Below the pieces are notes generated by a model that saw only the letters and a program-made list of their open reading frames with translations, did no database searches and was not told where the DNA came from. A DNA stretch of 64,000 nucleotides from Fimbriiglobus ruber (lineage in GTDB: Bacteria; Planctomycetota; Planctomycetia; Gemmatales; Gemmataceae), in assembly GCF_002197845.1 (NCBI RefSeq), contig NZ_NIDE01000001.1:1488001-1552000 (forward strand), given 5' to 3'. Position numbers and translations under genes: made by a program. Shown here one piece after another: positions 15,998 to 18,054 of the stretch (positions are counted from its first letter, which is position 1; each line of letters begins with the position of its first letter).

Positions 15998-16465
15998 ATG
16001 AAGACTATTCAAGTACGACTTTGGCATATCGCCCGCGTGCCCCTTAGCGCGTCACTGCTCACTTTGGTCGTCGGATGTGGGTCCGGCAAAACCGATGTCT
16101 CGGGCAGCGTTTCTTACGGTAACAAACCGGTGGTTTGGGGGACCGTAATTTTGGAAGATGAAACCGGAATGGTCCACAACGGAGATATCGATCTCCAAGG
16201 CAACTTCAAGGTTTTAGGTGTTGCCCCCGGGTCGGTGAAGATTGGCGTGACCAGCCCGAGCCCTGTCCAGAACAAGCCGCCGATTAAACGGGCACCTGAA
16301 GACCCGCGCTCCAAGATTGTGGCCCCCGTTGATACTCGTCCCAAACCGCCGAGCGGGGCCTGGTTCGCGCTTCCGCGAGAGGTCGGCGACCCCGGCACGT
16401 CCAAGCTCACCGGCGTGGTCGAACCCGGGAAGCCGTTGAATATCTCGATCGGCGGCGCGAAGTAA
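15998..16465 (+). CDS. Small lipoprotein paired with DUF1559 protein
   Basis: A 155-residue lipoprotein. The signal peptide ends in a lipobox (LTLVVGC, Cys at residue 26 or nearby). The mature part reads like a short transthyretin/carboxypeptidase-regulatory beta fold (VSGSVSYGNKPVVWGTVIL, GNFKVLGVAPGSVKIGV) with a Pro-rich insert. Planctomycete DUF1559 genes are often followed by such a protein, which suggests joint function at the cell surface. The ATG at 15998 was preferred to an upstream start at 15929 because it gives a standard signal peptide. Confidence 0.82.
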   Translation: MKTIQVRLWHIARVPLSASLLTLVVGCGSGKTDVSGSVSYGNKPVVWGTVILEDETGMVHNGDIDLQGNFKVLGVAPGSVKIGVTSPSPVQNKPPIKRAPEDPRSKIVAPVDTRPKPPSGAWFALPREVGDPGTSKLTGVVEPGKPLNISIGGAK

Positions 16466-16500
16466 ACGAGAGTCGTCCTCGCCCGGCGGGCGACGGGGCA

Positions 16501-17618
16501 TCATTTCTTGGCCGCGATCACCCGGTCTTCCGAGGCGAACGGGTAATTCTGGCTCAGTAGTGGGCCGAGACCGAGCATCGGGTCGTCGAGGTCGGCGTGT
16601 AGAACCTCCTTGAACAGCCACGACTTGATGTCATTCGGTTTAACCGGATTTGAATTCACAAGGAACGTGTGGACCTGGCGCCGCCGAATCGTTTCGTTCA
16701 CGCCCGTGTCGAGAACCAGTCCCGGGTGCTTCGCGAGAGGCGTTCCAGGTGCGACCGGCCCGAACGCAGCCGACCCGGCCACGATGGCACTCGTGGGGCC
16801 TTCGATTCCCGTGTACGGCCCACCGCCCTGAAGTCCGCCGATCATGGGTCCTTGAATTCCACCGAACCCAGCTTGGAATCCGCCTGCCCCGTTTCCATTC
16901 GGTACAAGCGACCCGCCCTTGAATCCGCCGCCCATCTTGGCGACAGCTTGCTGCCCTGGTGTCACGAGACTTTTATCAATCGCCGCGACGGCCTGCGTGT
17001 GGTATTTCTTCAGTCGATTAGCCGCCGTGGGTGAGGAACCGGGCGAACGCATGGCAAATGCTGCGATTTTCTCTAACGCCATGGCGTAAGTGCTTGGGTG
17101 TAGATTCCGGGCAAAACGTCGTACACGACCCCTTCGGCACTGCAAACGTAAGTGGCAATGTTGCCCTGAAGGGTCCGTTTCACGGTCAGCCCGTTTCCGA
17201 AGTCGATGGTCACGAGCGGAGCCGGTCGCAGGCTTTCCCACGCCGGCTCGAACGTCTGGTTGATGAACCAGGCCACCTCGCGTGATGAGAACAACACGGT
17301 CCTCGCGAGGCGAGCATTGGTTCAACAGAATTGCCGGTCGAGTTGCCCCATCATGTGAAAAAGCAGAACAGGCTTGCCCGACTTTTTCGATGCCACCTTC
17401 GCGTCGTCAAAAGACTTGTGCCATTTGACGAGCCCGGCGGGAACAACCGGGTTCTCGTCATCGGTCTGAGATTGAATCGTCGCGTGGGCGGCCGCCGGCG
17501 CCGAAACGGGCTTGGCGGCCGCGACGGAGCGCGGGCGGTCGATCGCAGCGACCGACAACGCAAAAGCTCCCAAGGCTGCCGTTCCCCAGCAGAAAACGCG
17601 AACCGAAAAGGCGCGCAT
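16501..17618 (-). pseudogene. Thioredoxin-like secreted protein, interrupted by in-frame UGA and a -1 frameshift
   Basis: One protein can be followed through three segments. From an ATG at 17618, a signal peptide and then a thioredoxin-like start (FDDAKVASKKSGKPVLLFHM) run to LDRQFC, where a TGA (17322-17324) occurs in frame. The same frame continues with TNARLARTVLFSSREVAWFI and VTIDFGNGLTVKRTL to about 17097. There one base is missing in a CCC run, and the sequence resumes in the -1 frame with STYAMALEKIAAFA and a Gly-rich, then conserved-looking C-terminus to 16501. Without repair it is a pseudogene. If the UGA is selenocysteine and the frameshift a sequence error, it is an intact selenoprotein. 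Neither case is proven. Confidence 0.65.
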
Positions 17619-17635
17619 AATCTCTCCCGATGTGG

Positions 17636-17731
17636 TCGAATGTGGAGTGCGGCGCTTGACCGCCGCTTTTGCTTTAAAAAAACTTAAAAACCAAAGCAAA
17701 GCGGCGGTCAAGCGCCGCACTCCACATTCGA
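17636..17731. repeat. Long near-perfect inverted repeat
   Basis: Arms at about 17636-17675 and 17693-17731 are complementary over some 39 bases with a single extra T; the core reads GCGGCGCTTGACCGCCGC. It sits just upstream of the thioredoxin-like start. It could be a terminator for a transcript from either side or a dispersed hairpin element. The rest of 17732-18054, up to mnmG, shows no gene. Confidence 0.85.
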
Positions 17732-18054
17732 CTGGGTGTCGCGGATGCGAACCTGCAAAGCCGTTCTGCTTGACCAGAAACAACAACACGGCTCAGGGTG
17801 ACCGCGTTTGTGGTCGTGTCGAGGAATGGGATAAAAACCTGGCGAACAAAAGTGTCGGCGAAATGAATTCAGGCGCCTTACCGCGGTCGGTGCAGGGAAA
17901 GTCCCCTACCCCGCCACCATCGGCGGAAACCACCAGTGAATGACCTGCTCTGACCTCAGGCAACTTCAAATTCCAGTTCACGCATGTCCGCCGGATTCGG
18001 ATACAGTAAATATTGAAGGCGCGCAGCCCTCTTTCCCGAACACCGATTCGATTC

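Follow-up and report, generated by a model that had tools for sequence, protein, structure and literature searches.

The window, by which we mean the whole analysed stretch of 64,000 nucleotides from Fimbriiglobus ruber, carries on its minus strand a gene for a thioredoxin-like protein that is interrupted by an in-frame TGA. The features of the locus are listed below.

17073..17618, minus strand: 5' part of the probable selenoprotein gene, with ATG at 17618, a signal-peptide-like N-terminus, a thioredoxin-fold domain and the probable selenocysteine (Sec) codon; the frame ends with TAG at 17073
17322..17324, minus strand: TGA, the probable Sec codon, with the Cys codon TGT at 17325-17327 directly before it
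17274..17312, minus strand: outer stem (17304-17312 with 17274-17282), which forms in the window copy
17287..17304, minus strand: apical hairpin of a probable bacterial SECIS, with arms 17304-17299 and 17292-17287 and loop CGUGUU at 17298-17293
17090..17112, minus strand: stretch of the frame change, where homology shifts from the first frame to another in a single change
16501..17094, minus strand: 3' part of the gene in a different frame, with a Gly-rich linker and the conserved C-terminal block NExxRR...VLHADLDDPxLGLGP
17622..17628, minus strand: candidate RBS-like GGGAGAG before the ATG, read from the sequence

A TGT-TGA pair inside a thioredoxin-like frame that continues beyond it had been described in the first-pass annotation, and this was confirmed at 17327-17322 of the minus strand. 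When the UGA is read through, the frame is open to the TAG ending at 17073, that is for about 82 codons; about 74 of these show homology to relatives. The identity of the 5' part to 12 close homologues is 49–72%. The 3' part lies within the open reading frame 16501-17325 and shows 48–57% identity to four relatives. A promoter scan of 16300-18000 gave no promoter-like site, and a terminator scan of the same range gave three terminator-like sites against 2.3 expected. The open reading frame lists of four related loci were compared by eye, and no common neighbour was seen. A perfect 35-base inverted repeat (17635-17669 / 17698-17732, with a 28-base centre) ends 16 bases before the ATG. Its 20-base core has 47 copies in the genome, 23 forward and 24 reverse, most of them in opposed pairs that lie close together; the reversed control has none. 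The repeat is a REP- or MITE-like element.

The TGA was compared across relatives. A search of 95 Gemmataceae genomes, the window's own genome included, gave 21 matches in 18 genomes. All 21 contain exactly one in-frame stop, which is TGA and falls in the same aligned column, and this is more than chance would give. The two other genomes of the window's genus had no family match. The Sec column was read in 106 loci from Planctomycetota and Melainabacteria/Obscuribacterales. It holds TGA in 96, TGC in nine, TAA in one and TAG in none. Some of these loci are the same contig from two collections, and the 96 TGA loci comprise 76 that are distinct over 150 bases. When 392 genomes of the phylum were searched with a family profile, 130 had matches at E ≤ 1e-4; the weak end of this list may contain ordinary thioredoxins. 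The list has 77 matches at E ≤ 1e-20, and of these 66 contain a single TGA and 11 are stop-free. Nine of the 11 were read, the other two being G243 and G272, and all nine have TGC at the Sec column within the motif S-C-A-N-S-R; the stop-free matches weaker than E 1e-20 are likewise outside this reading. A scan of named genomes gave 56 loci. They belong to Planctomycetota and to Melainabacteria/Obscuribacterales, in part under the label Cyanobacteria; one record bears the label Actinobacteria, and two are named just uncultured bacterium. TGA stands at the Sec column in 55 of them. The exception, L122 (record Candidatus Kuenenia stuttgartiensis), has TAA at this column and TAG upstream, with the hairpin described below still largely present. 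Decayed copies therefore exist, and L122 was excluded from the Sec set. Another locus, L118, has an additional TAA ahead of its TGA; it was omitted from one row set of relatives, together with L030 and some near-duplicate rows.

The machinery for Sec decoding was searched for in the genome (12.36 Mb, 20 contigs), as had been advised, and every part of it was found. SelA is encoded at C1:625369-626463 (471.8 bits), SelB at C1:1183716-1185608 (362.6 bits joined) and SelD at C5:62285-63208 (361.8 bits). The tRNA-Sec lies at C11:63579-63672, with 70.7 bits against a gathering score of 47, and ARAGORN reports it as tRNA-SeC with anticodon TCA. The tRNA-Sec model exceeds its cut-off at two more places in the genome (52 and 48.2 bits) and also in five of 14 control genomes, so the model alone proves little. 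SelA was matched in 87 of the 95 Gemmataceae genomes, a few of them weakly, and Sec decoding is thus normal in this family of bacteria. The presence of SelA was tried as a separator of Sec and Cys genomes and was rejected for want of a clean split: it was present in 38 of 43 genomes picked for a TGA match and in eight of 11 picked for a stop-free match, a comparison that covers 54 of the 130 matching genomes, many of them incomplete, and one genome (G349) has both a TGA match and a stop-free match. The homologues had been named as another check of the codon, and they carry either TGA or Cys (TGC) at it, barring the TAA of the decayed L122. Both a lack of sel genes and an ordinary non-Cys sense codon in homologues were looked for and not found.

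A hairpin follows the UGA. Its 6-bp stem, GAGGAC/GTTCTC, extends from +18 to +35 counted from the UGA. The 13 closest members, the window included, have GCGAG-RR-CCGTGTTGTTCTC in common after the UGA. All 13 keep AGA/AGG and TTG codons at the hairpin, and such codons would be unusual for DNA so rich in GC. Conservation was assessed over 68 Sec sequences, which are the 76 distinct Sec loci minus eight off-register ones (L032, L034-L037, L050, L052 and L063, mostly of the NNA branch). The stem is paired in 98.0% of 402 cells, and four of the six pairs show a compensatory, double-sided change. Cells with a double-sided change number 24, against 3.8 in shuffles, and the covariation score is 0.304 against 0.134 in shuffles. 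None of 500 shuffles reached the pairing, the changed cells or the covariation score, and all slid versions were lower. The weaker measures were the number of pairs with a double-sided change, reached by 27 of 500 shuffles, and the count of pair types, reached by 24 of 500 shuffles and one slid version. With all 76 Sec loci included, 419 of 456 cells are paired; the folds of L034 and L037 have a hairpin with a CGUGU loop that is closer to the UGA by a few bases. The loop starts with CGUG in 64 of the 68 Sec sequences, and RNAalifold recovers the same hairpin unaided. In the nine Cys relatives, 28 of 54 cells are paired and none has more than four of the six pairs. The 6-bp hairpin is likely a bacterial SECIS. 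No Rfam match above the gathering score was obtained at the UGA site, and two sub-threshold miRNA matches there were taken as chance.

The first-pass annotation had placed the SECIS stem elsewhere, in nine pairs between 17304-17312 and 17274-17282 with the core CCTCGCG/CGCGAGG. These pairs can form in the window copy, but they are not conserved. Over the 68 sequences the outer stem is 45.0% paired, against 31.1–45.3% for slid versions, and its covariation score was reached by 104 of 500 shuffles. Both values are at the level of controls, so the outer stem was rejected as a conserved element and is a local feature of the window copy. The conserved element is the inner hairpin (17304-17299/17292-17287), which that annotation did not name. 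The single-sequence fold of the window (z -2.55; four of 200 shuffles equally stable) uses most of the nine outer pairs round the inner hairpin. Single-sequence folds of several relatives are no stabler than shuffles.

From these data the in-frame stop of the window gene is very probably decoded as selenocysteine. This sequence-based reading rests on the Sec machinery in the genome, the conservation of TGA or Cys at one column, and the covarying hairpin that the Cys relatives lack. The suggestion of a selenocysteine candidate has thus been supported. The UGA would be decoded as Sec by SelB with tRNA-Sec, and the short bSECIS hairpin within the coding sequence, 18–35 bases downstream, would direct the decoding.

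For the understanding of the protein, a domain model of the relative L020 (145 residues, 79-row alignment) was obtained with a mean pLDDT of 95.6 and a pTM of 0.88. In this model Sec is residue 45, directly ahead of helix 46-55. VIA-align superposed it on 3f9u_B, which is the C-terminal domain of an exported protein related to cytochrome c biogenesis, with Z 14.4 and an rmsd of 2.4 over 107 residues. The Z values were 12.2 to the DsbH-domain protein 7tkv, 11.8 to DsbH 2ju5 and 8.9 to E. coli thioredoxin 2trx. The domain is therefore predicted to have a thioredoxin fold, with its reactive residue where the first active-site helix begins. In the profile alignment, the Sec column falls on the first Cys of CHWC (3ira) and of CPHS (AGR2), and we infer that Sec replaces the attacking Cys of thioredoxin-like CxxC/CxxS sites. 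Over the 76 distinct loci, the third residue after Sec is Ala in 65, Gly in 10 and Ser in one. The same position is Ser in all nine Cys forms, which makes the site UxxA/G or CxxS. The classical CxxC pair of redox residues is absent at the family site. A Cys-UGA pair had been regarded as a classic setting for selenocysteine; it is present in the window copy, but the Cys is not fixed. The residue before Sec is Cys in 50 of the 76 distinct loci, Thr in 21, Leu in three and Ala in two. With another residue in 26 loci, the preceding Cys is not essential across the whole family. The motifs at the Sec site include FC-U-TNAR, T-U-NNA and L-U-SAGH. From its place at the head of the first active-site helix, Sec would most likely act outside the cytoplasm as a redox nucleophile, with thiols, disulfides or peroxides as its targets. 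Where Cys precedes, the neighbouring Cys and Sec may form a selenenylsulfide. The N-termini of members resemble signal peptides, and four members (L025-L027 and L029) carry RRRFLQTS there, which we take to resemble a twin-arginine signal. Judged from these N-termini, export of the family proteins is likely. Close members also conserve the C-terminal block.

A second lesion near 17097 had been held against the Sec reading, and it is real. Near 17,100 the homology to relatives shifts into a different frame, which it follows down to 16501. The 12 close relatives have no frame change, and programmed frameshifting as a conserved feature was rejected for this reason. The dN/dS ratio (Nei-Gojobori) against four relatives is 0.23–0.28 before the frame change and 0.21–0.36 after it, and these values are no higher than those obtained when the intact relatives are compared with one another. 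A selection that was lost recently would escape dN/dS, since dS to the window gene is greater than 1. Both parts of the gene still appear to be under selection, and the frame change is therefore recent or is a sequencing or assembly error. It appears to be located at a short C run, a kind of place where assembly errors are common. As assembled, the window copy would give a thioredoxin domain with a short tail, lacking the conserved C-terminal block. The frameshift and the palindromic repeat 16 bases before the ATG may reflect decay of the window copy.

Taken as a whole, the data are best explained by a probably exported thioredoxin-fold selenoprotein, with Sec inserted under direction of the hairpin and acting as redox nucleophile, and with one recent or erroneous frame change. 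We put the probability of this reading at about 0.94. The same UGA could be a nonsense mutation in a pseudogene, with the frame change as the second lesion. A pseudogene would fit the frame change near 17,100 with the repeat just upstream of the gene, the matches in just 18 of the 95 Gemmataceae genomes, and the clear decay of L122 with TAA at the column and another stop. It is nonetheless highly improbable. TGA stands at the column in 96 of 106 loci against one TAA and no TAG, many members are otherwise open, and the nine stop-free relatives read have Cys. The covarying hairpin after the UGA and the dN/dS of 0.21–0.36 on the two sides also argue against it. A narrower proposal is that the window UGA once encoded Sec and that this copy is now dead through the frame change, the relatives still being working selenoproteins. 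We consider this possible but doubtful. The single frame change after the Sec domain and the palindromic repeat upstream of the ATG speak for it. However, the UGA, the hairpin and both halves are like those of intact relatives, the thioredoxin domain is nearly complete ahead of the change, and the change seems to sit at the short C run, where an assembly error would be no surprise.

UGA recoding to other residues exists in other lineages, and the UGA here could likewise be decoded as, for example, Trp or Cys with no selenium involved. This is even less probable than a simple pseudogene. The genome has a dedicated tRNA-Sec with SelA, SelB and SelD, and UGA is the gene end in several relatives, e.g. 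L019 and L022. The substitute residue at the column is Cys, and a covarying hairpin follows the UGA.

The family is widespread in planctomycetes and in some non-photosynthetic cyanobacterial relatives, and its members are probably exported and would act as redox proteins. Thirteen loci from Melainabacteria/Obscuribacterales/Cyanobacteria (L087-L089, L091, L092, L095, L097, L098, L102-L104, L110 and L123) are Sec forms with 56–64% identity to the window core, and they take several places in the tree amid planctomycete rows. Either inter-phylum transfer or shared old inheritance may account for this. The window's genome has three such genes with TGA at the site, and three weaker matches in it are stop-free with an ordinary CxxC. 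The second member, L128 (C1:355339-355713, UGA at 2092-2094 of the minus strand), lies within an open NNA-type gene and has the motif FTUNNAEALRV. The third and distant one, L137 (C14:444176-444496, E 4.0e-4), has TGA at the homologous site with the motif ERCUGYAAGLR and possibly represents a separate selenoprotein family. Five genomes of the phylum (G374, G138, G383, G209 and G327) have at least seven matches each, and G374 at least 11, weak matches counted, which suggests lineage-specific expansion. Plasmids gave no family match by tblastn.

A tree of 79 rows (70 Sec and nine Cys) requires a minimum of one Sec/Cys change, against a mean of 8.7 after shuffling, and 71% of the bootstrap trees also have one change; the tree has an arbitrary root and few columns, and its rows come from strong matches, which favour Sec forms. 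The nine Cys rows form a 13-row group with four Sec rows at a support of 100/99. Sec may be ancestral within the family. Ordinary CxxC thioredoxins are the deeper relatives, so Cys is presumably older at that level. In a broader picture, Planctomycetota and Melainabacteria would have an ancient family of exported thioredoxin-fold proteins with several branches, where Sec prevails and is ancestral and Cys marks one late branch; the odds on this picture are about even. If it is true, these bacteria would have a selenium-based redox system outside the cytoplasm. A genome would often contain several paralogues of its genes, which standard annotation would split at the UGA. Bacterial selenoprotein genes are regularly misannotated because the UGA is taken as a stop. 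The family would give Planctomycetota a directly testable set of probably exported selenoproteins, and it is a possible case of Sec being older than Cys inside one family.

The family was compared with known systems. No Pfam model matched the window protein at E ≤ 0.1, and NCBIfam gave sub-threshold matches only, the best at 16.5 bits against a cut-off of 275. Over 31 members, two NCBIfam families appeared at E ≤ 0.01, in two members and in one. Among the known families, the VPGUxxT thioredoxin-like (seleno)proteins (NF041383/NF041382) are likewise thioredoxin-like and contain Sec. Their models score 16.5 and 14.3 bits with the window protein (P0001), against cut-offs of 275 and 350, and over the 31 members the best E is 0.0021. 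The weak match covers residues 62-87 and 42-87, a GKPVLL-type N-terminal region, and stops short of Sec, and the window family has no VPGU motif. This known family corresponds to the hypothetical protein OS_HP5 in Table 1 of PMC13188914. The Trx7/PDZ domain-containing (seleno)protein (NF041199), by its name, also has a Thioredoxin_7-like domain and Sec; it matches one of the 31 members (E 0.0081), and its motif in the same table is CxxU, whereas in the window family Sec comes first in the site. The Pfam families Thioredoxin_7 (PF13899) and Thioredox_DsbH (PF03190) have the general fold in common with it and match 12 and two of the 31 members, respectively, at E ≤ 0.01, but the window protein matches neither. 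In comparison with their CxxC, the second Cys is Ala or Gly in 75 of the 76 Sec loci and Ser in the Cys forms, and the window family has extra residues ahead of Sec. AGR2 and AGR3 are animal secretory-pathway proteins. The single nucleophile of their CPHS site aligns with the Sec column and the VIA-align Z is 10.8–11.5, but they have Cys instead of Sec and the identity is 14–16%. A curated model specific to the window family was not found in Pfam or NCBIfam. No family that could be equated with it was found in Table 1 of PMC13188914, a 2026 inventory of 119 families by its own count. For planctomycetes, PMC4807772 reports that Gemmata obscuriglobus and Isosphaera pallida have Sec genes, and it gives selenoprotein candidates for two further planctomycetes. 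By the open PMC literature searched, the window family is apparently an uncatalogued family of a known kind, the bacterial selenoproteins.
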